From positions 1 to 64,000 of the forward strand of contig NAUB01000036.1 of assembly GCA_003676145.1 (NCBI GenBank): a DNA stretch of 64,000 bases. The letters run 5' to 3'. Source of the stretch: a gamma proteobacterium symbiont of Stewartia floridana. GTDB taxonomy: Bacteria; Pseudomonadota; Gammaproteobacteria; Chromatiales; Chromatiaceae. The translations under genes and the position numbers were made by a program. The stretch's first letter is position 1; every line of letters starts with the position of its first letter. The notes beneath the pieces were generated by a model. That model saw only the letters and a list, made by a program, of their open reading frames with translations. It made no database searches and had not been told where the DNA came from. Of this stretch, positions 5,573 through 24,699 are shown in pieces.

Positions 5573-8500
5573 ATGCAGGCACTGATTGGCCTGTTTTTCA
5601 GAATGTTCGAATCTATGCGTAACCATCCAGGCGGTAAGCCGATCTTATTTTCCAAACGGCTCACTCTGCTGTTTCTGATATTGCTTGTCTGGAGCGGATC
5701 GCTGCTGTCAGCCGATAATCTGCAACTGGCCAACAGCGGTCATCAGTCCGTTGTTCTCCAACTGAAGTGGAAACATCAGTTTCAATTTGCCGGTTACTAT
5801 GCTGCCAAGGAGAAGGGTTACTACAGAGAGTTGGGATTGGAGGTGGAGATCAGAGAGCATCAGGGAGATGCTCCGGTCGAAGTGCTGCTTGACGGTCAGG
5901 CGGATTATGCGGTGAGTGGGGCGGATGCGTTGATCAAGCGAGCCAATGGCTATCCGGTGGTGGCCTTGGCGGCAATCTATCAGCACAGTCCCTACGCCTT
6001 ACTGGTAAGAGGTGATTCGGGCATTCATCGGGTTTCCGATCTGCTTGGACGGCGTGTGATGATTGGCAGTGGCAGGCAGGATGCCGCACTCCATGCAATG
6101 TTGAAAAGAGGCGGCCTTTCCAACGATGATTTTATTCGCCTGCCCAGCAGCTTTGATGCGAACTCATTGGTCACCGGTGAAACGGATGCATTCAATGCCT
6201 ATATGACAGATCAGGGGTTTCTGTTGGGCGAGGCGGGTGTGGTGCCCCGATATATCATACCGAAGGATTATGGGATCGACTTTTATGGCGATGTATTGAT
6301 CACTACTGAGCAACAGATCAGTGAAAACCCTGGGCAAGTTGAAAACTTTCGCACCGCCACGCTTAAGGGTTGGGCCTATGCCCTGGCTCATCAGGATGAG
6401 ATCGTTGATCTGATCCTAAAGAAATACAATACCCAGGGCATGTCACGTGCCCATCTTATGCATGAGGCCGATGTCTCCAAGGAGTTGATTCAGCCACTGT
6501 TGGTTGAGATCGGCTACATGCATCCTGAACGTTGGCGGCAGATCCATGAGATTTTTGTAGAGTTGGATTTTCTTGGCGAGAACAGTCGTATAGACGGTTT
6601 GCTATATCAGGCGAAATCCCCCATACCGGAGTGGTTGAGTTGGAGCTATGAAAACTATGTCTCTGTCCTGATTGGCGCACTATTGTCAATAGGCTTGCTG
6701 TTGTCGATTATCGTCTTCAGGCTGCGTGAGCTGGTCAGGCAGCATACGGCTGAACTGATTGAAAAAGAGCGTCGATACAGAACAATATTCAATGCCGCAC
6801 CGGAAGGGATGTGGGTCATCGATCCTGAACGCAAGACGCTCGAGGTCAATGAGCGATTACAGGAGTTGCTGGGTTACAGTAAAGAGGAGATACAGGGAAA
6901 AACCCCAATGGAGTTTGTCGATGAGACAAACAAACAGATTTTTATTGAACAGACAAATAAGATCAGTAGAACCGAAAGGCGCAGCTATGATATTGAGCTG
7001 CAGCATAAGGATGGTTACAACATACCTACCCACTTCAGTGCGGTTACCCTGCGGCAGCAGGATGGCAGTGTGTTCTCCTCGATTGCCTTTGTGGAAGATA
7101 TTACAGAGCGTAAAAGACTCGAGGCGGAGTTACGAGCGGGTGAGCAGAATCTGCGTCGTCTGGTCAATTCACAGCCGGCTTGTGTCAGTACCATCGGAAA
7201 AGATGGGGAGTTGCTCAGTATCAACCCGAAAGGGCTTGAGATCATTCAAGCGGATTCATTCGAGCAGCTCTCAAAATACGTAATTTTCGATTTGATCGAT
7301 GAGCCCTATAAGGAGGCATTTGAGCAGATCAATCAACTGGTTTTTGAAGGCCAGAGTGCATCCTTGACGTTCAGCATTACCGGTTTGAAAGGTCGGCATA
7401 TCTGGCTGGAAACCCATGCGGTGCCGATCATGGATTCTGAAGGTAAGGTTGTCGAGCATCTTGGTTTGACCCATGACGTGACCGATCGTCTCAATATGGA
7501 GATGGAGGTTTATCGTGAACGTGAGTTTTTGCAGGCCGTCATCGATAACATCACCGATGCGGTGATGGTGATCGATACCGAACTGCAGGTTCAATTGATG
7601 AACAAGAGCGTCAAACAGATGCTGAAGGGATTTGGTTTTGAGCATGAACGACCAAAATACTACTTTGATCTGCCATTCGTTTCATATCCGACAGACAGCA
7701 CTGATGCTCAGGATTGCCCGGTTCATCGAGTGCTTGAAAACAGGCGTCAGGCGAGTGCAATACTCTCCCGGCCGTTTACATCGAACAGTAGTAAACTGAA
7801 GCGGGTTGAGGTGATCGCCTCGCCTCTATTGAACAGCGATGGCACCCTGCGGGGGGTTATCGAAGTGGCCAGGGATATTACAGAACACCTTGAGCTGCTG
7901 GATGAGGTCAAGCAGCAGAAGGACAACCTGCAACATCTCGCACACCACGATTCTCTGACCAATCTGCCCAACAGGGCGTTGTTTCTGATGCGTTTGCAGC
8001 AGGCGATCAGCAAGGCCAAACGTAACAACTCTCAACTGGCGGTTTTGTTTGTCGATCTGGATCGGTTCAAGGAGATCAATGACAGTCTGGGTCACGCAGT
8101 TGGCGATATGGTCTTGAAAGAGGCGGCCAAACGATTTTCAGAGAGTGTGCGGGAAGAGGATCTATTGGCACGCTTGGGAGGCGATGAGTTTACTTTCATT
8201 TCAGAGGGACTGAAGAAACCACAACATGCAGCCATTGTGGCACAGCAGATTATCCGCTCCCTGGAGTTGCCGTTTGAAATGGATAATCATCAGTTCTTTC
8301 TTACTGCGAGTATTGGAATCAGCGTCTATCCTCAGGATGGTCGAAGCGCAGACACACTGCTGCGCAATGCGGATGCGGCAATGTATAAAGCCAAGGATGA
8401 GGGCAAGAATACATTTCAGTACTATACCGCGGATATGACCGAGCAGGCCTTCGAGAGAATATTTCTCGAATCGAGCTTGCGGCGGGCATTGGCCGAGGAT

Positions 8501-9274
8501 CAATTGGTTGTCTACTACCAGCCTCAATATGATACAGCCGGTGGCGGTCTGATCGGTGTGGAGGCCCTGGTACGTTGGATGCATCCCGATATGGGTATGG
8601 TTTCACCCTCGAGATTTATTCCATTGGCTGAGGATACCGGGCTGATCATTTCATTGGGTGAGCAGGTACTGCGGATTGCCTGCAAGCAGATGGCGAGCTG
8701 GAATCAGCAGGGCATCGCGCCACACAAGTTGGCTGTCAATTTATCGGTAAAACAGATCAGCAGCACTGAGCTTATACCGACCATCAAAACCATATTGGAT
8801 GAAACGGGGTGCCTTTCTGAGTGGCTTGAGTTTGAGGTGACCGAAGGTTTTCTGATGAAAGACCCTGAGGCGTCGGTTTCAATTCTGCAGCAACTGCGAG
8901 ATCTTGGCGCAGAACTGGCGGTGGATGATTTTGGTACAGGTTACTCGTCACTGGCCTATCTGAAGCGATTTCCATTGACCCGGCTGAAAATCGATCGTTC
9001 TTTTATCCATGATGTGCCTGGTGATGGTGATGATGTGGCGATTACCCGGGCAATCATCGCGATGGCGAAAAATTTGAATCTGAATGTATTGGCGGAAGGT
9101 GTGGAGAACGAGGAGCAGAGAAGCTTCCTGGTGGCTGAAGGTTGTAATGATGCCCAGGGTTTCTATTTTAGCCGACCACTATCCGCAGCCGATACCACTA
9201 AGCTCTTGATCAAGGAGAATGGCAATACCAGCAACTCATCCGCTTCGGATCTGCCTGATCCGTTACGGGGTTGA
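5573..9274 (+). CDS. NMT1/THI5-like sensor with PAS, GGDEF and EAL domains
   Basis: 1233-residue membrane sensor that joins ligand binding to c-di-GMP turnover. An N-terminal signal/anchor (about 25-45) is followed by a periplasmic NMT1/THI5-type domain (about 55-330; LKWKHQFQFAGYYAAKEKGY is its hallmark). TM about 361-385; three PAS domains from about 400, 526 and 653; GGDEF domain from about 788 with the intact motif in LARLGGDEF near 869 and an RxxD inhibitory site (REED) just before it; EAL domain from about 970 with VEALVRW, DDFGTGYSSLAYL and LKIDRSFI. Both catalytic domains look intact, so the direction of activity cannot be read from sequence. Start unsure: ATGs at 5573, 5603 and 5615 all lack a good ribosome site. 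The ligand may be a pyrimidine-like or small organic molecule by analogy. Confidence 0.93.
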   Translation: MQALIGLFFRMFESMRNHPGGKPILFSKRLTLLFLILLVWSGSLLSADNLQLANSGHQSVVLQLKWKHQFQFAGYYAAKEKGYYRELGLEVEIREHQGDAPVEVLLDGQADYAVSGADALIKRANGYPVVALAAIYQHSPYALLVRGDSGIHRVSDLLGRRVMIGSGRQDAALHAMLKRGGLSNDDFIRLPSSFDANSLVTGETDAFNAYMTDQGFLLGEAGVVPRYIIPKDYGIDFYGDVLITTEQQISENPGQVENFRTATLKGWAYALAHQDEIVDLILKKYNTQGMSRAHLMHEADVSKELIQPLLVEIGYMHPERWRQIHEIFVELDFLGENSRIDGLLYQAKSPIPEWLSWSYENYVSVLIGALLSIGLLLSIIVFRLRELVRQHTAELIEKERRYRTIFNAAPEGMWVIDPERKTLEVNERLQELLGYSKEEIQGKTPMEFVDETNKQIFIEQTNKISRTERRSYDIELQHKDGYNIPTHFSAVTLRQQDGSVFSSIAFVEDITERKRLEAELRAGEQNLRRLVNSQPACVSTIGKDGELLSINPKGLEIIQADSFEQLSKYVIFDLIDEPYKEAFEQINQLVFEGQSASLTFSITGLKGRHIWLETHAVPIMDSEGKVVEHLGLTHDVTDRLNMEMEVYREREFLQAVIDNITDAVMVIDTELQVQLMNKSVKQMLKGFGFEHERPKYYFDLPFVSYPTDSTDAQDCPVHRVLENRRQASAILSRPFTSNSSKLKRVEVIASPLLNSDGTLRGVIEVARDITEHLELLDEVKQQKDNLQHLAHHDSLTNLPNRALFLMRLQQAISKAKRNNSQLAVLFVDLDRFKEINDSLGHAVGDMVLKEAAKRFSESVREEDLLARLGGDEFTFISEGLKKPQHAAIVAQQIIRSLELPFEMDNHQFFLTASIGISVYPQDGRSADTLLRNADAAMYKAKDEGKNTFQYYTADMTEQAFERIFLESSLRRALAEDQLVVYYQPQYDTAGGGLIGVEALVRWMHPDMGMVSPSRFIPLAEDTGLIISLGEQVLRIACKQMASWNQQGIAPHKLAVNLSVKQISSTELIPTIKTILDETGCLSEWLEFEVTEGFLMKDPEASVSILQQLRDLGAELAVDDFGTGYSSLAYLKRFPLTRLKIDRSFIHDVPGDGDDVAITRAIIAMAKNLNLNVLAEGVENEEQRSFLVAEGCNDAQGFYFSRPLSAADTTKLLIKENGNTSNSSASDLPDPLRG

Positions 9275-9860: not shown

Positions 9861-11585
9861 ATGCGAAACTCGATCTATCTACTGGTCCTGCTGTTGATCC
9901 CAGTTAACCTCTATGGCCTGGAGGTGTCGGTGACGGTTAAGGGTTTGGAATCTCAGTTGCGGGACAACGTACTGGTATACCTCTCGATCGAACAGGAAAA
10001 GTCCCGCTCCTCGTTGACTCAGGCCAGGCTTAGACTGCTGCATGATAAAGCGGAGGGTGAGATACGGGAAGCATTGAAACCATTCGGTTTTTTTAAACCC
10101 AGCATCATCAGCAAACTGGAACAGCAGGAGCAGAGGTTTCAGGCGACTTATAGCATCGATTCGGGCCCGGCGGTGAAGATCGTCGAGGTGGACTTTCGGG
10201 TTTCCGGAGAAGGCAGTGAAGATCCGCGGGTGAGCAAGGACTTTCCTTTGAAGGTTGGCGATGTATTGGATCAAAGTCTCTATGACGGAGCCAAGCAGTC
10301 TTTACTCTCTAATACCATCGAGCAGGGCTACCTGGATGCGAAGTATCTGCAGCACAGAATTCTGGTGGATACGGCAAGTGATACAGCCAGCATAGATCTG
10401 CATCTGGATACCGGTATGCGACTGCGTTTCGGTGAGGTTCGTTTTAATCAGGATGTGATGGATGCAGAGTTTCTGGCCCGCTATGTGCCTTTCAATACCG
10501 GTGACCCGTTCAGTCAGGAGGCGCTGCTCAATCTGCAGGGGCAGTTGACCGACAGCGAATATTTCAAAAGAGTCGAAGTGATCAGCCGTCGGGATCAGGT
10601 GGAGGGAGACCGGGTGCCGGTGGATATCAATCTCAAGCCCAACAAAAAGAATCGTTACCGGATTGGTCTGGGTTACTCCACGGACACAGGTCCCAGGCTG
10701 ACCCTTGATTGGAAAAACCGTCGCATTGGACGTCGCGGCCACAGAATGCGAACGGAGTTTCAGATATCGGAACCGATCAGCAGCATCAGCACTGAATATG
10801 TCATACCCCTTGAGCGGCCCACCGAGGACTATCTGCGTCTGGGTGCTTCCTATGAGCATTTCAACTCCGATACCAATCAGGGGGACCGGGCACTGCTCAA
10901 TCTCACCCACTCAGTAAGCCTGGATAGGGGGTGGCGGCGCAGCCTGGGGCTGGAGTATACCCGTGAGGAGTATCAGGTCGGCAATCAGGAGGGTAAATCA
11001 AGACTGTTGGTGCCGAGTGTGGATTGGCTGCGCATCAAGAGTGATGGAAAGCAGCGGATTAAAAGGGGCAAGCGCCTGAATTTCCATATCGAGGGAGCTT
11101 CCGACGCTGTGTTGTCTTCCACCAGCTATTTTCAACTCTACGCCAGTGGCAAGGATATTCGTGCTCTGGGTGATGGGGCTTGGCGTCTGCTGAGTCGGTT
11201 GGAGTTGGGAGCGACCTGGGCCGAAGATCTGACTGAGTTGCCGCCGAGCAAACGTTTCTTTGCCGGTGGCGATAACACGGTGCGGGGATTTGGTTATCAG
11301 GACCTGGGGCCTGAAGATGAGGCGGATGATGTGATCGGCGGACGCTATCTTGCCGTGGGCAGTCTGGAGATCGATCGCCACATCAGCGGGAAATGGAGCG
11401 GCGCCCTGTTTGTCGATGCGGGTAACGCCTATGATCAGGACTATGATTCGGAAACGGCTTACGGGGTTGGTTTGGGTGTGCGCTGGCAGTCTCCGGTTGG
11501 ACCGGTTCGTTTCGATGTCGCTTCCGGCCGGGTTGACGACGAGCAGCACTGGCGTCTGCATATTGTGCTAGGGCCTGAATTGTGA
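9861..11585 (+). CDS. tamA: TamA, outer-membrane barrel of the TAM complex
   Basis: 574-residue Omp85-family protein. It has a signal peptide (residues 1-18), three POTRA-like domains (about 20-265) and a C-terminal 16-strand barrel (about 275-574). The barrel contains FFAGGDNTVRGFGYQDLGP, the conserved VRGF loop of Omp85 proteins. It ends VLGPEL; the last residues are less aromatic than the usual terminal Phe. TamA works with TamB in the export or insertion of envelope components. tamB begins inside its last codons (GTGA overlap), so the two are translationally coupled. No strong ribosome site is seen at the start. Confidence 0.93.
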   Translation: MRNSIYLLVLLLIPVNLYGLEVSVTVKGLESQLRDNVLVYLSIEQEKSRSSLTQARLRLLHDKAEGEIREALKPFGFFKPSIISKLEQQEQRFQATYSIDSGPAVKIVEVDFRVSGEGSEDPRVSKDFPLKVGDVLDQSLYDGAKQSLLSNTIEQGYLDAKYLQHRILVDTASDTASIDLHLDTGMRLRFGEVRFNQDVMDAEFLARYVPFNTGDPFSQEALLNLQGQLTDSEYFKRVEVISRRDQVEGDRVPVDINLKPNKKNRYRIGLGYSTDTGPRLTLDWKNRRIGRRGHRMRTEFQISEPISSISTEYVIPLERPTEDYLRLGASYEHFNSDTNQGDRALLNLTHSVSLDRGWRRSLGLEYTREEYQVGNQEGKSRLLVPSVDWLRIKSDGKQRIKRGKRLNFHIEGASDAVLSSTSYFQLYASGKDIRALGDGAWRLLSRLELGATWAEDLTELPPSKRFFAGGDNTVRGFGYQDLGPEDEADDVIGGRYLAVGSLEIDRHISGKWSGALFVDAGNAYDQDYDSETAYGVGLGVRWQSPVGPVRFDVASGRVDDEQHWRLHIVLGPEL

Positions 11586-14500
11586 CCCTTGCTAGAACGA
11601 TTGCCTTGTTGATCGGTGGCCTGCTGCTGCTCTGCCTGTCACTGTTTCTCTACATTGGCATGAGTCAGGATGGTGCCAGGCGGCTGTTTGATCAGGCGCA
11701 ACCCTACCTGCCCGGAAAACTGACTGTCGACTCCATTGAGGGGCGACTCGTCGGACCTTTGCTAATCAAAGGGTTGTGCTATCAACAGCAGGATGGGCTG
11801 ACGTTCTGTAACGAGATCTTCAGGTTCGATTGGCGCCCATGGTCTCTGTTGAATGGGCGTCTTGAGATTACACAGCTGCTGTTGAGCGATTCGGCCCTGA
11901 CGCTTCCACAATCTGAATCCTCCGATCAAGAGAGTGCTTCCTACCAAGGGGTGACTCTACCCCTGGAGATCACCATTGAGCGCTTTTCCAGTAGCCGTTT
12001 CCAACTTACCCCCAGTCCGGATGGAGAGCCTCTGCTGGTCGATCACCTCAGGTTCAGCGCGACAACCGAAGATCAGCACTTATTGATCAGCGATCTTGAT
12101 TTCAAGGGGCTCTCCGCTGAGCTGCTGATTGATGGTCAGGTCGGGCTTGATCGAAACCTGCCCCTGTCGCTGGCGCTGGAGTGGCGCTATAGCCTGTCTG
12201 AAGGGAGTGTGATCGCAGGAGGCGGCGAGATCAGCGGCGATGCGGAAAACCTCCAACTGCAACAAAAACTGCAACCACCGCTAGCCAGTCAGCTGCAACT
12301 CGATCTGCGTGATCTGTTTGGTGAGATCAACTGGCAGGCGGTGCTGGCTGTCGATCGAATCGATCTGGCTGGGTTGGTTGCCGATTTTCCTGCCACGCTG
12401 GCTGGCAGGGTGGATGCTGAGGGGAATCTGCAACAGCTCACTCTGAACGGGGATATGCAACTGGATGAGCCCAGGATTGGCAAGTTGTCCAGTGAGCTGT
12501 CCGCCAGCTACCGGGATAACAGAGTTGAAATTGCCAAACTGAAGCTGACCAACCCCAACGACCTCAAGCTTGATGCCCAGGGCCACTATCGGCTCGACGA
12601 TGGGGTGATGGCTGCAAGCCTTAACTGGCGACAGCTGACCTGGCCACTCAATGGTGAACCGGTGAGCCTCTCCAGTGATCAGGGTGCGCTCGATCTCAAA
12701 GGCAGTCTCGATCGATATGTCTATGAGTTGAAAATGGCCTTCGATCTGCCTGATCTGCCGGCAGCGGAGATCCAGGCGGATGGTCAGGGTACTCTGCAAG
12801 CCATTACTCTGGAGCAGATGATCTTGCGTCAGGAGAATGGCCAGGTTAATGGCGAGGGTTCTTTCGACTGGTCAGATGAACTGAGTTGGCGGATGGCGCT
12901 TGTGGCTGAGGATTTCAATCCCGCGCTTTTTCATCCGGCCTTTCCGGGTAAGCTGGGCTTTCGCCTGAGCAGTCAGGGCAAGTTGGAGAATCAGCAGCCA
13001 CAGGGAGAGGTGCAGCTCGATGCCCTCAAGGGGCGTTTGCGTGAATACCCGGTGCAGGGTGAAGGGGAGATAACCTTTGCTCAGAATCAGGCGGTCATCA
13101 AGGTTTTAAATCTGCAGAGTGGTCCGAATCAGATCAGGGCATCCGGAACTGTCGGTGATGAGTTGGGGCTCGACTGGACGATGGCAGCCCCGGACCTGGC
13201 TGGATTCTGGCCTGGTCTTTCCGGTGAACTGAATGGTCAGGGGCAGTTGCAGGGTAGTCTCCAGTCGCCACAGATCTCAGCCCGGCTTTCGGGACAGGAT
13301 ATCGCTTATCAGAGTTATCTGCTGCAGAGGCTTGCCGGGGAGCTGGCCTTGAGTATGGGCCAGTCCCAACCCGTCAAGCTGAAGCTTGATTTAACCGGGC
13401 TCACTCTGGCTGGCAGAGAGTGGCAGGCATTGAAGGTCGATCTCGATGGCCAGGTCGAGGCGCATCAGCTAAGCGTAGCTCTGACTGGAGAGGATGTGCC
13501 GCAACTGGCGCTGATGGTCGATGCCGGTCTGGATCAGGCGGGGCTCTGGAAAGGGCGACTGCAGCAGCTGCGTGCGGAGTCAAAGGAGCTTGGCGAGTGG
13601 CAGCTCGAACAGGCTGCGGATTTCCTGCTTGGGGAGAGGCAGCAGTCTCTGCAACCCTTCTGTCTGGTTGGCGGTGAAAGTCGGTTGTGTGGTGAGTTGG
13701 CAAACACTCCGGATGCGGATTGGCGGTCTCAACTGAAACTGGAAAAATTCGATCTGCAAAGGTTGCAGGTCTGGGCCCCTGGCGGTAGCAAACTGAAGGG
13801 ATTGTTAGGCTTTCAAGCAGAGCTGAATGGTAGCAGTGCCGGTGAGATTGAGGGCCGGGTCGATCTGAAGCTGGCCCAGGCGGGGCTTGGGTTCGACTAC
13901 CAGGATCAGCTGCACGAGGTCGACTTCTCCGGCACCCATCTGACGGCCAGACTCGATGCCAATGGTGCTACGGCTGAACTTGAGATGCCGCTCAAGGAGC
14001 TTGGCGGCATCAATGGCAAGCTGAGATTGCCGGGATTGAATCTGCCAACGTTCGATCCACACAAGCAGTCCATATCCGGTCAGCTGAACGGTGGTATAGA
14101 GAATCTGGCCATGCTCTCCAGTCTGTTGCCTCAGCTGCAGAACAGCCGCGGCGATTTTGATATCGATTTTGACATACAAGGTGTGGTGGCAGAGCCCAGA
14201 CTCAAGGGAGAGGCGAGGTTGAGCGGTGGTGCTGTGGATATCGCTGAGCTGGGAACCGAGCTGAGGGATATTGAACTGCTGATCGAGGCGGTTGAATGGG
14301 ATCGGCTGAAGGTGAGCGGTCAGGTCAACTCAGGGGATGGTCAGTTGTCGATCAACGGCACCACCCGGTTGAATGCGGGCGATGGCTTCCCTTCCGAATA
14401 TAAAATAACCGGTAAATCCTGGCGGGCTGTGGATATCCCGGAGGCCGAAGTACTGATCTCGCCCGATATTCAATTCAAGCATCAGGTCGACGGTACTGAA

Positions 14501-15322
14501 GTACGTGGACTGATCAAGGTGCCCTATGCCCGATTACGACCAAGGGATCTACCCAAAGGCGCGGTTTCGGTCAGTTCGGATATGGTGCTCAAGCAGTCTG
14601 AAGAGGCCGATGAACCGGATCAGCGCAAGGCCCCCTTTCGAGCTGAAGTGCGGCTCGCTTTGGGTAAGCGGGTCAGCTTCGATGGGTTTGGTCTGAGGGG
14701 CAACTTCAAAGGTGATCTGTTGATCATCGATGAACCGGGTCGCCCGGTGATCGGCCGCGGGCGCCTTGGAATTGAAGAGGGCGTTTACAAGGCCTACGGA
14801 CAGGATCTGAAGATAGAGCGGGGATATGCCCTGTTTGCCGACAGTCCGGTGGATAATCCTGGGATCAATATTCGGGCCGTGCGGGAGGTGGATGATGTGG
14901 TGGCCGGATTGCGGGTCAGTGGTACCCTGAAGAGCCCCAAGCTCGATCTCTTTTCCACACCTGCAATGTCAGAGAGTGATGTGTTGAGTTACATACTGAC
15001 CGGCAGACCGCCCGGTGAGTCCTCCGGTCAGGTGGGATTGGCGGCGGCATTGAAAGCGAGCGGCGCCAGTGACCTGGCCGCCGAGCTGGGACGGCGTTTC
15101 GGGCTGGAGGAGTTCAGGTTGGACACGGGCAGCAGTCTGGAGGAGGCCTCATTCGTTGCCGGTACCTATCTCTCGCCCAGACTCTATGTCCAATATATCA
15201 ACGAGCTTTCGAGCGCGGAGAGCAAGTTACGCATGCGTTACGACCTGACCGATCGCTGGCAGCTGGAGGCGGAGACCGGACGCACCCAGGCGGGTGATTT
15301 TTTCTATACCTTTGAAAAATAA
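11582..15322 (+). CDS. tamB: TamB, AsmA-like envelope-spanning protein
   Basis: 1246 residues from a GTG that overlaps the tamA stop by 4 bases. An N-terminal membrane anchor (about 6-27, LLIGGLLLLCLSLFLYIG) is followed by a long run of repeating beta-strand units (about 35-1050) expected to form a hydrophobic groove across the periplasm. The C-terminal DUF490/TamB domain (about 1060-1246) has LDLFSTPAMSESDVLSYILTG, typical of the family, and ends in FYTFEK. In Escherichia coli TamB shares phospholipid transport to the outer membrane with YhdP and YdbH; a YhdP gene is also in this window (61829). Confidence 0.94.
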   Translation: MTLARTIALLIGGLLLLCLSLFLYIGMSQDGARRLFDQAQPYLPGKLTVDSIEGRLVGPLLIKGLCYQQQDGLTFCNEIFRFDWRPWSLLNGRLEITQLLLSDSALTLPQSESSDQESASYQGVTLPLEITIERFSSSRFQLTPSPDGEPLLVDHLRFSATTEDQHLLISDLDFKGLSAELLIDGQVGLDRNLPLSLALEWRYSLSEGSVIAGGGEISGDAENLQLQQKLQPPLASQLQLDLRDLFGEINWQAVLAVDRIDLAGLVADFPATLAGRVDAEGNLQQLTLNGDMQLDEPRIGKLSSELSASYRDNRVEIAKLKLTNPNDLKLDAQGHYRLDDGVMAASLNWRQLTWPLNGEPVSLSSDQGALDLKGSLDRYVYELKMAFDLPDLPAAEIQADGQGTLQAITLEQMILRQENGQVNGEGSFDWSDELSWRMALVAEDFNPALFHPAFPGKLGFRLSSQGKLENQQPQGEVQLDALKGRLREYPVQGEGEITFAQNQAVIKVLNLQSGPNQIRASGTVGDELGLDWTMAAPDLAGFWPGLSGELNGQGQLQGSLQSPQISARLSGQDIAYQSYLLQRLAGELALSMGQSQPVKLKLDLTGLTLAGREWQALKVDLDGQVEAHQLSVALTGEDVPQLALMVDAGLDQAGLWKGRLQQLRAESKELGEWQLEQAADFLLGERQQSLQPFCLVGGESRLCGELANTPDADWRSQLKLEKFDLQRLQVWAPGGSKLKGLLGFQAELNGSSAGEIEGRVDLKLAQAGLGFDYQDQLHEVDFSGTHLTARLDANGATAELEMPLKELGGINGKLRLPGLNLPTFDPHKQSISGQLNGGIENLAMLSSLLPQLQNSRGDFDIDFDIQGVVAEPRLKGEARLSGGAVDIAELGTELRDIELLIEAVEWDRLKVSGQVNSGDGQLSINGTTRLNAGDGFPSEYKITGKSWRAVDIPEAEVLISPDIQFKHQVDGTEVRGLIKVPYARLRPRDLPKGAVSVSSDMVLKQSEEADEPDQRKAPFRAEVRLALGKRVSFDGFGLRGNFKGDLLIIDEPGRPVIGRGRLGIEEGVYKAYGQDLKIERGYALFADSPVDNPGINIRAVREVDDVVAGLRVSGTLKSPKLDLFSTPAMSESDVLSYILTGRPPGESSGQVGLAAALKASGASDLAAELGRRFGLEEFRLDTGSSLEEASFVAGTYLSPRLYVQYINELSSAESKLRMRYDLTDRWQLEAETGRTQAGDFFYTFEK

Positions 15323-15361: not shown

Positions 15362-15534
15362 TCCGTCGGTTTTTCACTTTCCAGCAGTTTTGACCTTATT
15401 GCCTCCTGTGGCTTGACGCTTCTGTTGGTTTCCAGAATTTCTTTCCTTTTTGTCAGCAAATATTGAACGCTATTTGATTAAGCGGTGGTTTTCTTGATCT
15501 GCATCAGCTTTATCTGTTGTGTTTCAATGTTTCT

Positions 15535-15557
15535 TTGTCCAATATTAAGTTGGACAA
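15535..15557. promoter_or_regulatory. Inverted repeat in front of the CarH-like gene (candidate MerR/CarH operator)
   Basis: TTGTCCAA, seven bases, TTGGACAA: a perfect 8-bp inverted repeat 19 bases before the chosen start of the B12-binding regulator. TTGGACAA fits the nTnnACAn form described for CarH-type sites (established knowledge), and TAGGACAA follows at 15565. Autorepression is the likely use. The pair would fall inside the reading frame if the gene began at 15517, which favours the later start. Confidence 0.5.
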
Positions 15558-15576
15558 GGATTTTAGGACAATGGGT

Positions 15577-16485
15577 ATGTCTGATTCAAAAATTTACAGT
15601 ATCGGTCTGATATCAAGCCTTACCGGTGTGAAGGAGGCGACGCTGCGCAAATGGGAAAGCCGTTATGGCTATCCTGACCCTGAGCGTTCGGATAGTGGCC
15701 GTCGTTACTATTCACAAACCCACCTAAGTAACCTGATCTCAATCAAAGAGCAGGTGGATACGGGGATCCCGATTCGTAAGGCGATCAGGAATCTGAAAAA
15801 GAACATTCTGCCGGGACAGCTAGCCAATGATCGAAGTTTCAACGCCAGAAAGGCTTACGGAGTGGCGCTTGAGGCATTGAAAGCCCACGATCTGGAGCTG
15901 TGCAAGAGTGAATTGAGAAAAATGCTCAACAAGGGAGACCTGATTGAGTGCGTTGAGCAGGTGTTAGCGCCAATGATGGTGGAAGTTGGCGAGTGCTGGT
16001 ATCGCGGGGAGATCAGTCCCTATCAGGAACACTGTATATCGAGTCTGCTTGAGTTGGCGTTGATTGAAGCCTCAATGAAAAAGAGGGTGACTCGGAGAGG
16101 TAAAAACATCCTGCTTACCACGCCCTATGGTGAGTTGCATACATTAGGTCTTAGTTTGTTGGAGATTGTTCTTGCCTCCATCGGTGGACGTTGTCTGAAC
16201 ATAGGTGGTGGATTGTCTTTTCAAGAAGTCTGTAAAGCTGTCCATGCCTACTCCATCGAGATCGTCTGCATCAGTGTGAGTCTCTACTGCAAACCCAGGA
16301 TAACCCATCAGTATCTGGCCGAGTTAAGGGCTTCTTTACCAAAACAAGTCGCGCTTTGGGTTGGAGGTCAAGGGATAAATCTAATGAAGAGCCTGCCGGC
16401 TGGCGTAACCTACTGCGCAACGGTTGGTGAGGCGGCAGATCTCTACTCATCGCTACCCAATTACAACAGACCTCCGGTCAAGTGA
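15577..16485 (+). CDS. MerR-family regulator with cobalamin-binding domain, CarH/LitR-like
   Basis: 302 residues. N-terminal MerR winged helix (about 5-70; KEATLRKWESRYGYPDPER), a four-helix cobalamin-cap domain (about 80-165) and a Rossmann B12 domain (about 170-295). The cap motif W-x9-EH is present (Trp141, Glu151, His152) and the B12 motif ExHxxG is E186-L-H188-T-L-G191. In Thermus CarH a His directly after the cap Trp ligates cobalt after light exposure; here that residue is Tyr142. It may thus bind cobalamin but respond differently to light. The start at 15577 has AGGA 8 bases upstream; ATG 15571 is possible. It is 7 bases from the CheB-CheR gene and probably co-transcribed with it. Confidence 0.88.
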   Translation: MSDSKIYSIGLISSLTGVKEATLRKWESRYGYPDPERSDSGRRYYSQTHLSNLISIKEQVDTGIPIRKAIRNLKKNILPGQLANDRSFNARKAYGVALEALKAHDLELCKSELRKMLNKGDLIECVEQVLAPMMVEVGECWYRGEISPYQEHCISSLLELALIEASMKKRVTRRGKNILLTTPYGELHTLGLSLLEIVLASIGGRCLNIGGGLSFQEVCKAVHAYSIEIVCISVSLYCKPRITHQYLAELRASLPKQVALWVGGQGINLMKSLPAGVTYCATVGEAADLYSSLPNYNRPPVK

Positions 16486-16492
16486 AACATTT

Positions 16493-19399
16493 ATGAATGA
16501 TATTGACAGCAAGAGCGAGCCTACGGCGAAGAAGTTTAATAGCTTTGTTGTTGGTATAGGTGCTTCGGCTGGTGGTTTGGAGGCGCTGGAGCGGTTTTTC
16601 ACCCACTGCCCCAGTGACACCGGCTCCGCCTTTGTCGTTGTACAGCACCTTTCGCCGGATCACAAAAGCATGATGATAGACCTGCTGAGCAGGTATACAT
16701 CGATGAAGGTCGTGATGGTGAAACATGACATGCAGCTGGAGGCTGATAAGGTCTTTCTGATCCCTGCTGGAAAGATCATGCGCCTGGACAAGGATCGCTT
16801 CAAACTTGAACCTAAGCAGGCACATGTACTGACACTGCCGATCGATATCTTCTTTACCTCACTCTCGGAGTCGTTCAACTCCAGGGCGATTGGTGTGGTG
16901 CTTTCCGGTACCGGGTCCGATGGCTCCAGGGGGGCGATCGCAATAAACGCGGCTGGCGGTTTCCTGATGGCGCAAGAGGCGAACAGCGCGAAGTTTGATG
17001 GCATGCCAGCCAGTATTATCGGAACGGGACTGGTGGATGCGATCATGCGGGCTGAGGATCTGCCTGAGCGATTGATATCCCATATAAGTAACATGCCGCC
17101 AGGGCCGTTATTGTCTGAGCCGGTAGAGGAAGAGGTATCGATTTCAGATGACGATGCCTATGAAGGCATACTGCAGATTTTATTGCAGACAGTCGGCATA
17201 GACTTCCACGATTACAAGATTGCAACCATTCTGCGTCGCATCGAACGAAGAATGCAGGTCAGGCATCTGAATAAGATCGATCGCTATTTCAGCTTGCTCA
17301 AGGAAGAGCGGCAGGAAGTGTTTACCTTGAAAAGGGAGTTGTTGATTCCGGTTACGAATTTTTTCAGAGACCCTGAAACATTCAAAGTGCTGGAAAGTAA
17401 CGTAATAGAGAGAATTGTGGAGAATGCCTCTACAGGCTCGAGTATCAGAGTGTGGGTGTCCGGTGTTTCCACAGGTGAAGAAGCCTATTCAATTGCCATG
17501 TTGTTCCTGGAGGCATTTGAAAAATTCAGACGCTGGCCGAACTTAAAGATATTTGCCACTGATGTGAGTCAGGAGAGTATCGATACCGCAGCTTCAGGCA
17601 GCTACTCGGAAGCGACAGGAACCGAAATCACTACCGAACGCCTGGAGAGATTTTTTACCCAGACCGGTAACTCCTATAACGTAAAACCAGAACTCAGACA
17701 AACGATTGTGTTTGCCAAACACAACCTCCTGGCGGATCCGCCTTTCACTCAGATGGATCTGGTGACCTGCAGAAACACCTTGATCTATTTTACCCATGAG
17801 GCGCAGAACAAAGCGCTTCAACGACTGCAGTTTGCGATAAAGCCTGAAGGTTATATGTTGCTTGGTTCGAGCGAGTCCATAGCCAATGCGGATATAGGTC
17901 TGTTGGCCATAGACACCAAGCATAAGCTGTATCAAAAATCCGCCAATCCTCCCCCTATGCGCTTCGACTCATTAAGTGAACCGTTCAAACGCTATGTGGC
18001 GAGATCAAACAAGAAAGACGCGGTCACCTCGTCAGGGAGAATCTCTGACAGCACTATTATCGATACGGCCGTAAAGGGATTGGTAAAGGAGTATGTGCCG
18101 CCGACCATGTTAGTCAACAGTCAGAATGAAGTGGTCCATCTGTTTGGTGATGTCACCCCGTTTATGCAGGCCAAGGAGGGTGTTGCGAGCCTGGAACTGA
18201 ATCGGTTGTTACCTGAGTCGGTGGTGCCGGTGGCATCGGCGTTGATTTTCAAGGCGTCTAAGGAGAAGGAGAAGATTGCCTCTGATGCAATACGTATAAC
18301 CACAGGCGAAAAAGAGAAATCGATTCGAATTCTGGTAACTCCGATCGTGCGGGATGGTTTGGAAACCCTTCTGTTGCTGAGTTTCATTGAGAAACATTCG
18401 GGTGATAGCGAGAGCAAGCCGAAATCGATCGACATCGATGCGGAAACCGTTGAACGAATCGAGGTGCTTGAGAGTGAGTTGGCGGCGACACGGGAAAGCC
18501 TGCAGGCAACCATCGAAGAGCTTGAAACATCCAATGAAGAGCTGCAGGCAACCAATGAGGAGTTGATGGCCTCGAATGAGGAGCTGCAAAGTTCCAACGA
18601 GGAGTTGCAATCTGTCAATGAAGAGTTGAATACGGTAAATGCCGAGTATCAGGAGAAGGTTCAGATACTCAATAGAGTGAATGCGGATTTGGACAGCATG
18701 ACCAAGGCGGTTGGTGTGCCGACCGTTTTTGTCGATCAACATCTGAATCTGACGAGGTACAGTCCTGATGCGGTGGGGATCTTCAAGATCAGGGAGACGG
18801 ATATCGGACGTCCGCTTGATGAAATCAACAATATCCTGCTTTACAGCGGACTGATGGATGACTTCAAAAGAACGATGGCGACCGGGCGTCTGATACAGAA
18901 AGAGGTGATGACCAGTAACAAGTCAACCTATCTGGTGAGATTGTTGCCGTACCATATTTCCAATGATGGTCAGGGCGCCGTGGCAACATTTATCGATGTT
19001 ACCGCTTATCGTGATCGGGAAAGATTGCAGTCAATCATCGATGCCTTGCCGGAGCATATCGCTGTATTGAGTCATGATGGCACGATTATGTTGGTGAACA
19101 AGGCTTGGGTCAGGTTTGCCAAAGCCAATGGCGATGCCAACTTGGAAACCACCGGCTTGGGGGTCAACTATCTGGAAACCTGTTATGACGCTAACAGTCC
19201 TGCCGGTAGTGATGCGAGAAAAGTTTACGCCGGCGTGAAACAGGTTCTGGAGGGAACGAAGGAAGTATTCAGTTTTGAGTATCCTTGCCACTCACCAACT
19301 GAAAAGAGGTGGTTTGTAATGAATGTGGCACCTGTTTCATCTGAAGACTATGGGTGTGTGGTGAGTCACGTCAATATCACTACATGGTATGAAGAGTGA
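16493..19399 (+). CDS. CheB-CheR-PAS fusion (chemotaxis-type methylesterase/methyltransferase)
   Basis: 968 residues from the ATG at 16493; the frame opens at 16424 inside the previous gene. CheB methylesterase domain (about 15-200) with the triad residues in [14 protein letters not shown] and GTGSDGSRG and no receiver domain in front. CheR domain (about 225-480) with [10 protein letters not shown] and [12 protein letters not shown]; the SAM loop reads [11 protein letters not shown] where AGCSTGEE is usual. A coiled coil of seven-residue repeats (NEELQ type, about 652-735) follows, then two PAS domains (about 739-835 and 844-960). Soluble. Such fusions sense signals by PAS; their targets are mostly unknown. 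No chemoreceptor gene is nearby. Confidence 0.92.
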
Positions 19400-19417
19400 T
19401 GCGGCATCACAATAAGT

Positions 19418-21871
19418 ATGACCATGCACTATAAAAGCCTATTTGAGAATCAGCCATCTGCAGCGGTTGTTATCGATAAATTCAGTGTTATCAAGTTGGC
19501 CAACAAAAAGGCGTCGGATCTGTTTGGTTTCAGAACCGCTGAAATGATGGAGGGTCATTTTCTTCTCAGGCTGTTTGGCGTGAATGAAATGGTGCGGCTT
19601 AAGGAAACACTATCCAATCTGAGAAAAAATTCTAATGTGTGCGTGGAGGATGTGAGTTATAAAGATGAAGCAGCTGTTGTACATCATCTTGATCTGCATC
19701 TGTCTGCAACCTATGACCCGAATCTGGCATACGATCTGGTACTTGTAACAATACAGGTGCACAAATCAGATATGGAGGACGGGGTCAATAAGAACAGCCT
19801 GCTGGCGATTCTGAATAATCTGGATGCGTCCGTGGTTACCTACAACAGAGATGGTGTGTGTACTTTTGCAAACGATGATTTTTTGAAGGTAAACAATAAA
19901 AATTATGAAGAGGTCGTTGGCAGGCGCAGAGAGTCATGGATGCCCTATGATGTTGCGGTAAAAGAGGAGGCAAAATCAGCTAAAGTACTCATCACAGGTT
20001 TGTCCTCCTGCGATGAGGTTGAGCTTTCAACCAGTGTGCATCATGACTCCAGATATGTGATATCGCGTTTCCCGATCATTGGCAAGGCAAACTCTTTTCC
20101 TTCAGGGACCGGCGAGCTGATTACCGATGTAACACGTCAAAGAGTGCAGGAAGAGCAGTTGACCCTGGTGTTGAATGCCTTTCGACTCAGTCGTGACGCA
20201 ATTCTGATGACAAATGAGCAGAATAAGATTATTTCGGTGAACGATGCCTTTGAGCGCATCACAGGCTATGTGGAATCAGAGGTGTTGGGCAAGGATCCAA
20301 GGCTGCTTGCCTCGAATCGACACGATCACCATTTCTACAAACGAATGTGGCAAAGTATCAACCAAAACAACCATTGGGAAGGGGAGATCTGGAACCGCAG
20401 GAAATCTGGTGAAATCTACCCTGAGTGGCTGAGTATCAGTAAAATCGTTGATGAGATTAAGAGCAATACCCACTATATCGCTGTCTTTACCGATATTACG
20501 CAAAAGAAGAAGACAGAGGATGAAATTGAAAATCTCGCTTTCTACGATGTGTTGACCGGGTTGGCGAATCGGTATCTGCTTGCCGATCGGGTGGAGAAGG
20601 CTATCCATTCAGATTTGCGAAGTGGTGCAACCTCATCGCTGGTCTATTTCGATCTCGATCACTTCAAGACGGTCAACGATACAATGGGCCACTCTGTGGG
20701 TGATAAGCTGTTACAGGAAGTGGCGATGCGTATGAAACGCCTGATCCGGGAAAAAGACACGCTGAGCCGGTTGGGTGGGGATGAGTTTGTGCTCTTCATG
20801 CCGGATATCAATCCGAATGATATCGAAGCAAGATTGCATGCTTTGGTCTCTCAGTTGAATCAACCTTATACGATTCTCGATACTGAAGTGACTATTTCAG
20901 CGTCCTTCGGCGTTGCGGTAAGCCCAGATGATGGGAGCTCCTACGAAAACCTTTTACGCCATGCCGATATGGCAATGTATAAGGCGAAGGAGGATGGACG
21001 GAACTCTGTCTGCTTTTTTAATCGTAAGCTGGAAATGAAAGCGATTAAAAAAATAAAGATTGATAATGAGTTGCGTTATGCCATCGACGCTCAGGAGTTG
21101 AGACTGAATTTCCAACCTCAATTGTTGCTGACTGACAACCGAATTGTCGGCTGCGAATCTCTGTTGCGTTGGAAGTCCCGCGTTTTGGGCGAAGTGAGTC
21201 CAATGGAGTTTATACCGGTAGCCGAGAAGTCAGGCTTGATCAACAGTCTGGGTAAATGGGTGTTGCAGCAGGCCGTATCAAAGGCAAAAGAGCTTCTGCA
21301 GATCGATCCTGAGCTGAAGATGGCAGTCAATATTTCGGCTTCTCAGCTACGCTCAGATGACTTCCTCTCTTCTCTGCTGGAGATCTGTGGTGAGCAAGGG
21401 GTGCCAGCAAACAGCATTGAACTGGAAGTTACTGAGTCGATGTTGATGGAAAAGGCTGAGAGTACGATGAAGCTGTTGAAGAGTCTGGCCAATCACGGTT
21501 TTCACATGGCCATCGATGACTTTGGTACCGGGTACTCATCGTTGGCCTATCTGAACTGGATGCCTGTTTCGGTGATAAAGATCGACCGGGAGTTTGTGCG
21601 GGATATCCACCAGAACGAGAAGCACAGAAAGGTCTGTGTTTCGATCATCCGATTGGCCAGCAGTCTTGATATCAAAACGGTTGCTGAAGGGGTTGAAAGT
21701 GGCGAGCAGCTCAGGATATTGCAACAGGAGGGGTGCGATATGATTCAGGGCTATCACTATTCCAGACCCTTGAGCGGAAGTGACATGGTGAAATTCTGTA
21801 GAGAATCTTCTGGTTTGGGTTCCGCTGAGGGGGAAATGACTCGAAAGGCGGCTAATCTCAGCGAGAGCTGA
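19418..21871 (+). CDS. PAS-PAS-PAS-GGDEF-EAL protein
   Basis: 817-residue soluble c-di-GMP protein starting 19 bases after the CheB-CheR gene. Three PAS domains (about 1-110, 125-235, 245-360), GGDEF domain (about 370-535) with SRLGGDEF near 450 preceded by an RxxD site (REKD), and EAL domain (about 545-800). The signature EAL reads ESL (CESLLRW), while DDFGTGYSSLAYL and IKIDREFV are kept, so phosphodiesterase activity remains possible. It has no membrane segment, so its signal must be cytoplasmic. It closes the cluster with the B12 regulator and is a likely output of it. Confidence 0.92.
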   Translation: MTMHYKSLFENQPSAAVVIDKFSVIKLANKKASDLFGFRTAEMMEGHFLLRLFGVNEMVRLKETLSNLRKNSNVCVEDVSYKDEAAVVHHLDLHLSATYDPNLAYDLVLVTIQVHKSDMEDGVNKNSLLAILNNLDASVVTYNRDGVCTFANDDFLKVNNKNYEEVVGRRRESWMPYDVAVKEEAKSAKVLITGLSSCDEVELSTSVHHDSRYVISRFPIIGKANSFPSGTGELITDVTRQRVQEEQLTLVLNAFRLSRDAILMTNEQNKIISVNDAFERITGYVESEVLGKDPRLLASNRHDHHFYKRMWQSINQNNHWEGEIWNRRKSGEIYPEWLSISKIVDEIKSNTHYIAVFTDITQKKKTEDEIENLAFYDVLTGLANRYLLADRVEKAIHSDLRSGATSSLVYFDLDHFKTVNDTMGHSVGDKLLQEVAMRMKRLIREKDTLSRLGGDEFVLFMPDINPNDIEARLHALVSQLNQPYTILDTEVTISASFGVAVSPDDGSSYENLLRHADMAMYKAKEDGRNSVCFFNRKLEMKAIKKIKIDNELRYAIDAQELRLNFQPQLLLTDNRIVGCESLLRWKSRVLGEVSPMEFIPVAEKSGLINSLGKWVLQQAVSKAKELLQIDPELKMAVNISASQLRSDDFLSSLLEICGEQGVPANSIELEVTESMLMEKAESTMKLLKSLANHGFHMAIDDFGTGYSSLAYLNWMPVSVIKIDREFVRDIHQNEKHRKVCVSIIRLASSLDIKTVAEGVESGEQLRILQQEGCDMIQGYHYSRPLSGSDMVKFCRESSGLGSAEGEMTRKAANLSES

Positions 21872-22833: not shown

Positions 22834-24699
22834 ATGTTTCAGGATTATTTTGGAATCGCTGAAGATCCATTCGCCATTACCCCGGATCCGAAATACCTCT
22901 TTCTGAGCGAGCGTCACCGCAATGGCTTTGCTCATCTGCTGTATGGTGTGACCCAGGGGGGTGGCTTTGTGCAGCTGACCGGTGAAGTGGGTACCGGCAA
23001 GACCCTGCTGTGCCGAAAACTGCTGGCCCAGTTGCCAAGAGCTGTGGATGTGGCGTTCGTCTTCAACCCCCGTTTGAGCCCTCTGGAACTGGTCGCCACC
23101 ATCTGTGACGAACTGAGAGTGCTCTATCCACTGGGTTGCAGCAGCATCAAGGAGATCGTCGACTTCCTTAATGCCTACCTGCTCGAGAGTCACGCCCAGG
23201 GTCGGCGTACGGTTGTGATCATCGATGAGGCCCAGAATCTGAGCTTTGAATCCCTCGAGCAGATCAGGTTGCTGACCAATCTGGAGACCTCTTCCGAAAA
23301 GTTGTTGCAGATCATCCTGGTTGGCCAGCCTGAATTGAGGAGCCTGCTGAATCGTCCGGAGTTGAGGCAGCTGGCTCAGCGGGTGACCGCGCGCTACCAT
23401 CTGACGCCTCTGTCACGCAGTGAAACCAGAGCCTACATACTGCATCGGTTGAAAGTCGCCGGTTTGGAACGACCGCTGTTCACTGATGGTGCGATACGGC
23501 GGGTCTACAAGCTGAGCGGAGGCATCCCCCGACTGATCAATATCCTCTGCAGTCGTGGAATGTTGGCTGCGTACGGCAAGCGCAAGGGGCAGGTCAGTCG
23601 CGGTATGTTGTCCCAGGTAGCCCGCGAATTACGGGGTGAAGAGGGTCTGGTCTCCCGCTTCCCCTCATGGGGTTGGATGGTGGCTGGGGCGAGTGCAACC
23701 CTGCTGGTGCTTGCGTTGCTGCCGCAAGTGGATCTGTTTCAATTGTTTGCCGAACCCAGTGCCGAGACTCAGCTGGTTGAGGAGCCGCAGGTGCCGCATC
23801 TGCATCAGCCTCAACAATTGCAACAGCCCAAACAACCTCAACAGGTTGAAGAGCCCAAGCAGGCCCAGGAATCCCAGCAGGTCAGTGAGGTTGAAAAACA
23901 GCCTGTGGCTGAAGCCGCAGCTGGAGCAGTTGTCGAGCAGGCTGCAGCGGCTGAGCCTGATCGTTCAGGATTAATTGTGCCCGATGTGTTGAGTCCTGAA
24001 GCCCTCAAGGCGGCTGATCAGGCGGCGAATTCGAATGCCAAGGATGAGCCGCAACCGGCCGAACAAAGCGATCCTGAAACGAGTGGGCTGAGTGGATTGA
24101 TCGGTAATGAGAACAGTGCATTTTCCACCCTTTTCAGTTACTGGCAGGAGGTCTATCCCAGCGGTGGAAAGACACGGTCATCCTGCGACAAGGCTGAGGA
24201 GGTGGGGCTGAGCTGTCTGTTTGGCCGAGGCTCCTGGAAAACCCTGGAGTACTATAACCGGCCTGCCATTCTGGAACTGATGATGGCGCAGGGAAGGCGC
24301 TACCACGTTGTGCTGACCGGTATGGGTGATCAGTCGGTGACACTGGATATGAATGGCCGAAAGTTCTCATTCGACTATGCTGAAATGGACCGGTTGTGGA
24401 CCGGCAGTTACATCATCCTGTGGCGTCCGCCGTCATTAGCCAGAACCAGTCTGCAGTTGGGTCAATCGGGGAGTGATGTGGGCTGGTTGATCTCAATACT
24501 GGATAAGATTGAGGGCATCGAGAGTGATTACAATCTGAGGAATCCCAGGTTTGATCAGCAGCTGCACCAGCGGGTGGTGCGTTTTCAACAGGAAAATGGC
24601 TTGTCGGCAGATGGTATTGTCGGCAAGCAGACTTTGATCCAGCTAAAAGGTATGGTGACCGATCGGACGAGACCTGCCTTGCTGAAATCCGGGGGCTGA
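22834..24699 (+). CDS. gspA: GspA/ExeA-like AAA ATPase with peptidoglycan-binding domain
   Basis: 621 residues. AAA ATPase domain (about 1-265) with Walker A GEVGTGKT and Walker B VVIIDEAQN, a membrane segment about 280-300 (WMVAGASATLLVLALLPQ), a Gln/Pro/Glu-rich linker (about 315-390), a periplasmic domain and a C-terminal peptidoglycan-binding repeat (about 555-610; FQQENGLSADGIVGKQTL). GspA/ExeA helps pass the type II secretion secretin through the cell wall. gspB begins one base after its stop. No other type II secretion gene is in the window. Similar ATPases also occur in exopolysaccharide clusters, but the GspB partner favours this call. Confidence 0.88.
   Translation: MFQDYFGIAEDPFAITPDPKYLFLSERHRNGFAHLLYGVTQGGGFVQLTGEVGTGKTLLCRKLLAQLPRAVDVAFVFNPRLSPLELVATICDELRVLYPLGCSSIKEIVDFLNAYLLESHAQGRRTVVIIDEAQNLSFESLEQIRLLTNLETSSEKLLQIILVGQPELRSLLNRPELRQLAQRVTARYHLTPLSRSETRAYILHRLKVAGLERPLFTDGAIRRVYKLSGGIPRLINILCSRGMLAAYGKRKGQVSRGMLSQVARELRGEEGLVSRFPSWGWMVAGASATLLVLALLPQVDLFQLFAEPSAETQLVEEPQVPHLHQPQQLQQPKQPQQVEEPKQAQESQQVSEVEKQPVAEAAAGAVVEQAAAAEPDRSGLIVPDVLSPEALKAADQAANSNAKDEPQPAEQSDPETSGLSGLIGNENSAFSTLFSYWQEVYPSGGKTRSSCDKAEEVGLSCLFGRGSWKTLEYYNRPAILELMMAQGRRYHVVLTGMGDQSVTLDMNGRKFSFDYAEMDRLWTGSYIILWRPPSLARTSLQLGQSGSDVGWLISILDKIEGIESDYNLRNPRFDQQLHQRVVRFQQENGLSADGIVGKQTLIQLKGMVTDRTRPALLKSGG

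Follow-up and report, generated by a model that had tools for sequence, protein, structure and literature searches.

The stretch of DNA analysed here (referred to as the window) comprises positions 1 to 64,000 of contig NAUB01000036.1 (assembly GCA_003676145.1), from a gamma proteobacterium symbiont of Stewartia floridana, and contains three consecutive genes, all on the + strand: REG, encoding a CarH/LitR-like MerR regulator; CBR, encoding a CheB-CheR-PAS fusion; and DGC, encoding a PAS-GGDEF-EAL protein (Table 1). The REG-CBR gap measures 7 bases and the CBR-DGC gap 18 bases. Judged from its sequence and its relatives, this trio is a real, conserved, and probably autoregulated operon in which a cobalamin-type regulator precedes a CheB-CheR/GGDEF-EAL pair.

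Order, strand, gaps, domains, and motifs all agreed with the original prediction, which had been made from the sequence alone. This includes the lack of a receiver in CBR, where Pfam finds CheB, CheR_N, CheR, PAS_10, and PAS_4. The beginning of the unit had to be moved, however, as a conserved palindrome turned out to begin at position 15535 (a TTG), with REG itself starting at the ATG at 15577. The start was placed there because an AGGA lies 8 bases before this ATG, and because, of the two nearby ATGs, it alone recurs in the most distant ortholog, G012. It is common to all five orthologs (see below), whereas a second nearby ATG (at position 15571) has no counterpart in G012.

Table 1. Coordinates of the trio and of associated features in the window.
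Feature	Position	Strand	Description
REG	15577..16485	+	CarH/LitR-like MerR regulator, 302 aa (amino acids): helix-turn-helix (HTH), four-helix B12-binding_2, putative Rossmann B12-binding region
CBR	16493..19399	+	CheB (without receiver)-CheR-coiled coil-PAS_10-PAS_4, 968 aa (Pfam)
DGC	19418..21871	+	PAS domains-GGDEF-EAL, 817 aa (Pfam)
Palindrome TTGTCCAA-N7-TTGGACAA	15535..15557		proposed REG operator; arms invariant in 5/5
Third half-site GGACAA	15566..15571		beside the ribosome-binding site; in 4/5 orthologs, absent from G012
Weak promoter candidate TTGATC-N15-TGTTGT	15494..15520	+	found by eye; TTGACC-N16-TATTGT in G016 and G002
21-base repeats	18500..18625	+	code for NEE-rich heptads, read by eye as a coiled coil between CheR and PAS
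tamB	11582..15322	+	left boundary (context); TamB (Pfam)
AAA/peptidoglycan-binding gene, exeA/gspA-like	22834..24699	+	right boundary (context); Pfam

Conservation of the trio

Five of the genus's 22 genomes, counting that of the window, carried REG orthologs, which were 84–97% identical to the window REG; named loci close to REG belonged to Candidatus Thiodiazotropha sp. 'RUGA', Ca. T. endoloripes, and a Chromatiales metagenome-assembled genome. In each of the five holders, CBR and then DGC adjoined REG downstream in the same order and on the same strand, so that the outcome named in the original prediction as refuting it, i.e., genes that are not neighbours in relatives, arose in none of them, with exactly 7 bases between REG and CBR and 18–24 bases between CBR and DGC. 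Given that the synonymous divergence (dS) of the trio copies from the window copy ranged from 0.29 to 2.4 (0.8 to 2.4 for the three more distant ones), this constancy of order, strand, and 7-base gap exceeds chance. Moreover, the ratios of nonsynonymous to synonymous divergence versus the window copy (0.055–0.091 for REG, 0.021–0.028 for CBR, and 0.044–0.100 for DGC, in four comparisons each; 0.09–0.16 for tamB and exeA, in two comparisons each) indicate that the trio genes are under purifying selection.

Of the 17 other genomes, 13 had the right-boundary gene (which we take to be exeA/gspA, and call exeA) directly after tamB, at a spacing of 0.7–1.8 kb compared to 7.5 kb in the window. Since the trio is absent from between tamB and exeA in these 13 genomes, it comes or goes as a block. 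As for the remaining four, G017 had no exeA match at this position, the stretches of G005 and G014 ended too early (that of G014 at the end of its contig), and tamB was not found in G008. The GC content of the trio genes was 0.47–0.49 versus 0.56 in tamAB and exeA. No direct repeats of at least 14 bases were found flanking both ends of the trio, and the window contained no Rfam match at gathering scores. In one trio genome (G010; L072 and L107), the trio and exeA shared one contig and tamAB ended another (G010:C1 and G010:C94), reflecting a rearrangement or an assembly fault.

A plasmid search with REG returned only distant matches, i.e., 180 records all below 60% identity, with the best at ca. 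32% among the matches listed. No annotated CheB-CheR gene occurred in two non-Thermus plasmid neighbourhoods, for which the gene table was incomplete. In the Azoarcus stretch among them, a diguanylate cyclase was located ca. 7 kb away.

A conserved palindrome upstream of REG

In the five trio genomes, the palindrome started 42–44 bases ahead of the REG ATG, with both arms unchanged in all five upstream regions while much of the surrounding intergenic DNA had diverged. An exact match occurred once per trio genome, always ahead of REG, and was absent from three genomes without the trio. As palindromes of the same kind are not rare by chance (2000 shuffles of the intergenic sequence yielded one in 48 cases, and there are 24 rows window-wide, nested registers included), the weight of this palindrome rests on its conservation. 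Such a single conserved palindrome would be the expected footprint of a dedicated self-regulating factor.

When up to two mismatches were allowed, 2, 1, 3, 2, and 1 distinct sites were obtained in G000, G010, G016, G002, and G012, respectively, compared to 5, 5, 1, 3, and 4 for a reversed-pattern control, and none in the three genomes without the trio. No REG target beyond its own operon is therefore claimed. An identical two-mismatch palindrome was noted in two trio genomes (G002:C3:492563-492585 and G016:C7:775657-775679).

The consensus scan returned 7 promoters versus 10.2 in shuffled sequence, and 6 terminator-like sites in the region versus 6.2 in shuffles, none of them inside the two gaps. 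The conserved order and gap, the single conserved palindrome in front, and the presence or absence of the trio as a block bear out the earlier view of the three genes as one unit. The reading we favour, with slightly more confidence than doubt, is that REG-CBR-DGC would constitute one operon autoregulated by REG, whose cofactor state would set CBR-DGC output.

REG retains the cobalamin-contact residues of CarH

REG matched the Pfam models of the MerR HTH (MerR_1, PF13411; 49.2 bits, cut-off 21.6) and of the four-helix domain (B12-binding_2, PF02607; 37.7 bits, cut-off 23), and aligned with CarH (5c8d) at an E-value of 1.7e-23 (phmmer), its identity to Thermus CarH (TtCarH) being 28–32%. The predicted W-x9-EH and ExHxxG motifs were indeed present and aligned with W131, E141-H142, and H177 of TtCarH, the equivalents of these four residues being kept in all five REG orthologs. 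The same residues are named as key to adenosylcobalamin (AdoCbl) binding (PMC11796333).

The W131, E141, and H177 equivalents were absent from BluR and MlrA in the alignment, and a tree of 29 proteins placed REG as one clade on a long branch, apart from both. Several forks of this tree were weak, REG, TtCarH, and MlrA were flagged for a letter composition that differs from that of the others, and row G030 was left out (24 aa remaining). Against the NCBIfam equivalogs, REG scored 108.1 bits for TransRegCarH (cut-off 400) and 33.4 bits for MlrA (cut-off 417, residues 8-73 only). Since some of the defining features that were tested fell short, REG is not filed as CarH; nevertheless, its sequence suggests that it plausibly acts like CarH. 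The original designation as a CarH-like cobalamin regulator is supported by the four AdoCbl-contact residues and qualified by the missing GxxxP light-response element. Assignment to class II LitR (four-helix domain only; PMC9758184) was rejected, as the AdoCbl-contact residues are retained, including H177 of the Rossmann region.

CBR and DGC form a common pair, usually without REG

The Ser/His/Asp motifs of CheB and the S-adenosylmethionine motif of CheR, to which we assign their usual catalytic roles, were kept in all five CBR orthologs. Likewise, the GGDEF motif with its RxxD site and the examined EAL-domain residues, the roles of which we also presume, were kept in all five DGC orthologs, the EAL motif itself reading ESL (ECL in G016, G002, and G012). 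Among NCBIfam models, DGC matched DibA first (580 bits, cut-off 980) and PRK10060, which we take to be PdeR/YciR, second (401 bits, cut-off 782), and consequently falls outside the PdeR equivalog.

Among 76 other CBR copies, most of them from the best-scoring matches, six were fused to GGDEF/EAL and another 17 were followed by a gene of this type, on the same strand and no more than 300 bases downstream; a MerR-B12 gene was present in the stretch for two (L077 and L265). As several stretches reached contig ends, these counts are lower bounds. The window's own genome contained two further pairs of CBR with a cyclic di-GMP (c-di-GMP) enzyme (L081 and L082). In the order (210 genomes), CBR matches outside the genus amounted to 69 listed rows from 60 genomes, at 49–56% over nearly the whole length. 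None of these 60 genomes was among the 12 extra-genus genomes having a REG-like match (E-value of 1e-18 or better), and no MerR-B12 gene was found within 1.5 kb of the extra-genus CBR at 25 loci. CBR and a c-di-GMP enzyme are thus a common pair or fusion, usually without REG, so that REG seems to have been added to a pair that is older.

Taken further, REG could simply have landed before a common CBR-DGC pair and regulate itself, with read-through being of no importance. This would fit the 23 of 76 other CBR copies that are paired or fused with GGDEF/EAL, the scarcity of MerR-B12 genes in their stretches, and the lack of overlap between the extra-genus genomes carrying CBR and those carrying a REG-like gene. 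We nevertheless deem it very unlikely, given that gene order and the exact 7-base gap were held at a dS of 0.8 to 2.4, and that neither promoters nor terminators exceeded chance between the genes.

Some further arrangements were observed. At L265:933-7509 (G413), a same-strand row encodes a CheB-CheR-PAS protein, a hybrid PAS kinase, a 337-aa protein, and a MerR-B12 regulator; it was not counted as the same arrangement, as 3.1 kb and two genes separate the MerR-B12 gene from CBR. Another possible cobalamin/c-di-GMP pair lies at L080:5988-8098 (G000:C27) in the window's own genome, where the gene of a 374-aa protein carrying the two B12-binding domains overlaps by 1 base with a 328-aa GGDEF gene. 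Finally, a 1233-aa NMT1-PAS-GGDEF-EAL protein is encoded upstream of tamA (window 5573-9274).

The gene slot upstream of CBR

The same-strand genes just upstream of CBR were surveyed at 104 CBR loci (four of them trio copies) and classed by eye. This slot was occupied by receiver proteins (L225, L240, and L242), PAS proteins of ca. 200 aa (L238, L239, L243, L261, and L276; one Pfam-checked), or a ca. 180-aa family with Cys pairs near the C-terminus (L081 at 11007-11555, L085, L086, and L265), the one scanned member of which gave no Pfam match. At many other CBR loci, the upstream genes were unrelated or none was clear.

Photoreceptors were found in this slot as well. At L077, a BLUF protein (Pfam, 105.3 bits) is encoded one base upstream of a 1413-aa CheB-CheR-PAS-GGDEF-EAL fusion, itself followed by a PAS-GGDEF-EAL gene, with a MerR-B12 gene divergent from BLUF (L077:7905-16883; G016:C19). 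This locus is a second light-regulator/CheB-CheR/c-di-GMP cluster within the genus. An operator between its MerR-B12 and BLUF genes was sought and dismissed, no comparable palindrome being present (the longest inverted repeat was 17 bases, 76%). In two genomes of one genus, a 153-aa short LOV protein with the motif GHNCRILQG occupied the slot (L303:665-1126 and L308:4485-4946), ca. 330 and 50 bases from CBR, respectively, with a GGDEF gene after the CheB-CheR-PAS gene. The assignment was made by phmmer (best E-value of 4.9e-35), in which short-LOV structures such as 3sw1 ranked among the top matches, and we read the motif, too, as that of a short LOV.

Overall, LOV or BLUF proteins occurred at 3 loci in 1.16 Mb of CBR loci, and 1.40 Mb of other loci contained only the same BLUF locus (L033, identical to L077). 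As this comparison set holds CheB or CheR loci and duplicates, and is therefore no clean control, no enrichment is claimed. The photoreceptors upstream of CBR are suggestive only, and mildly favour a light input.

Proposed mechanism and its rivals

In the proposed mechanism, REG would bind the palindrome ahead of its own gene and thereby set transcription of REG, CBR, and DGC jointly. A change in cofactor state (i.e., AdoCbl photolysis by light, or AdoCbl loss) would make REG release the DNA, upon which CBR and DGC would be made. DGC would then alter c-di-GMP, with CBR possibly as its partner, either in a methylation independent of receptors or as a scaffold, and direct REG-DGC contact, as reported for MlrA and PdeR, may add feedback. 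Within this scheme, the single transcript, autorepression, cobalamin binding, effector, input (light or B12), and output (methylation and c-di-GMP) are what we infer.

A number of observations weigh against this model or its light-driven form. The consensus scan did not pick up the promoter candidate, which is a weak one. The Rossmann region of REG scored 22.2 bits against Pfam B12-binding (PF02310), under the cut-off of 32.1; its GG and SxS elements align. An AlphaFold model built on four close REG sequences was poor (mean pLDDT, i.e., predicted local distance difference test, of 50) and was not used. Of the light-response signature (GxxW, EH, GxxH, and GxxxP; PMC11796333), REG fits three of the four elements, with GxxxP replaced by GxxxS in all five orthologs. 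In CtMerR, the Pro of GxxxP touches the adenosyl group (PMC11796333, section 11), and a Ser at this site was otherwise seen only in alignment row G000C24, whose remaining motifs are lost. Moreover, His132 of TtCarH, the light-state ligand, is a Tyr in all five REG proteins. This Tyr alone does not exclude light, since position 132 is an Arg in light-responsive CtMerR and a Tyr in AbDPcob (PMC11796333, section 11). Furthermore, the photoreceptors in the upstream slot amount to three loci, two of them independent, without a clean control, and Ca. Thiodiazotropha are described as symbionts of clams of sulfidic sediment, a mostly dark place.

The loss of the GxxxP Pro, which alters the light-sensing side of the pocket, and the sediment habitat would both suit a REG that is a cobalamin-status sensor rather than a photoreceptor, reading AdoCbl/methylcobalamin supply and tying c-di-GMP output to nutrition. 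The window's own genome also carries a riboswitch for cobalamin and the gene of a CobA/BtuR-type adenosyltransferase, which would suit the proposed mechanism as well. Yet Tyr132 is compatible with light, and BLUF and short LOV proteins fill the upstream slot elsewhere; this alternative is possible, if rather doubtful.

Alternatively, REG could be governed by protein contact instead of by its cofactor, with DGC as a trigger phosphodiesterase binding REG in the way that PdeR/DgcM act on MlrA and BluF acts on BluR. PRK10060 being the second NCBIfam match of DGC is in line with this, as are the inhibition of MlrA by PdeR through direct interaction (PMC5052742), the contact that the C-terminal domain of MlrA is said, as unpublished data, to make with the EAL domain of YciR, and the antagonism of BluR by BluF (both PMC3509220). 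However, REG keeps the W131, E141, and H177 equivalents that MlrA and BluR miss and branches apart from both, and DGC scores under the cut-offs of the DibA and PRK10060 models, making protein contact an unlikely, albeit credible, mode of control.

Should the autoregulated, cofactor-controlled operon be real, cobalamin sensing would be linked to c-di-GMP at the level of transcription, within a compact operon, a genus of clam symbionts would have an input for light or B12, and receiver-less CheB-CheR fusions would gain a testable partner. No paper on the substrate of such fusions was found in searches on CheB-CheR with GGDEF/EAL or photoreceptors. With its single conserved palindrome, the first step of the mechanism is directly testable. 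More speculatively, and in our view quite improbably, CBR and DGC might constitute a c-di-GMP switch that is free of receptors and coupled to methylation, and whose upstream sensor can be exchanged. In several lineages this sensor would be a photoreceptor, each time of another chemistry, with BLUF in a Thiodiazotropha endoloripes genome, short LOV in a related genus, and the B12 regulator in the window, which would then contain a modular light-to-c-di-GMP unit in its cobalamin version.

Comparison with known systems

No such operon was found in the titles and abstract openings returned by literature searches, which covered few subscription papers, on CarH-type regulators with c-di-GMP, on CheB-CheR with GGDEF/EAL or photoreceptors, or on Thiodiazotropha with c-di-GMP, nor in the accessible parts of two reviews (PMC8846402 and PMC5812497). 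The earlier remark was that no described system of this kind was known; mechanistic relatives are in print, i.e., MlrA-DgcM-PdeR and BluR-BluF of E. coli, in which GGDEF/EAL proteins control a MerR regulator by contacting it directly (PMC5052742 and PMC3509220). The C-terminal region of MlrA is of the B12 type.

Like REG, MlrA is a MerR regulator working with GGDEF/EAL enzymes (PMC5052742), but it lacks the W131, E141, and H177 equivalents, and the accessible part of that paper describes no CheB-CheR protein. BluR-BluF similarly pairs a MerR regulator with an EAL protein encoded next to it and has light as an input (PMC3509220), but there the light sensor is a BLUF domain in fusion with EAL, and BluR also lacks the three residues. 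In Pseudomonas mendocina, a LitR-family regulator (PmlR2) lies beside the gene of, and is read by, the short LOV photoreceptor PmSB-LOV (PMC9758184); in contrast to REG, PmlR2 is a class II LitR reported as unable to bind B12, and no c-di-GMP enzyme is described in the portion of the paper at hand. The photocobilin-diguanylate cyclase AbDPcob ties AdoCbl light sensing to c-di-GMP synthesis, but does so with sensor and enzyme in one protein, and with neither a DNA-binding regulator nor CheB-CheR described in the accessible text (PMC10979010 and PMC11796333).

Finally, CarH/class I LitR shares with REG the MerR HTH, four-helix bundle, and, putatively, the Rossmann region along with the W131, E141, H142, and H177 equivalents, but differs from it in the GxxxP element (GxxxS in REG) and at position 132 (Tyr in REG). 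Moreover, Thermus carH adjoins phytoene synthase and photolyase genes, whereas REG heads a c-di-GMP unit.

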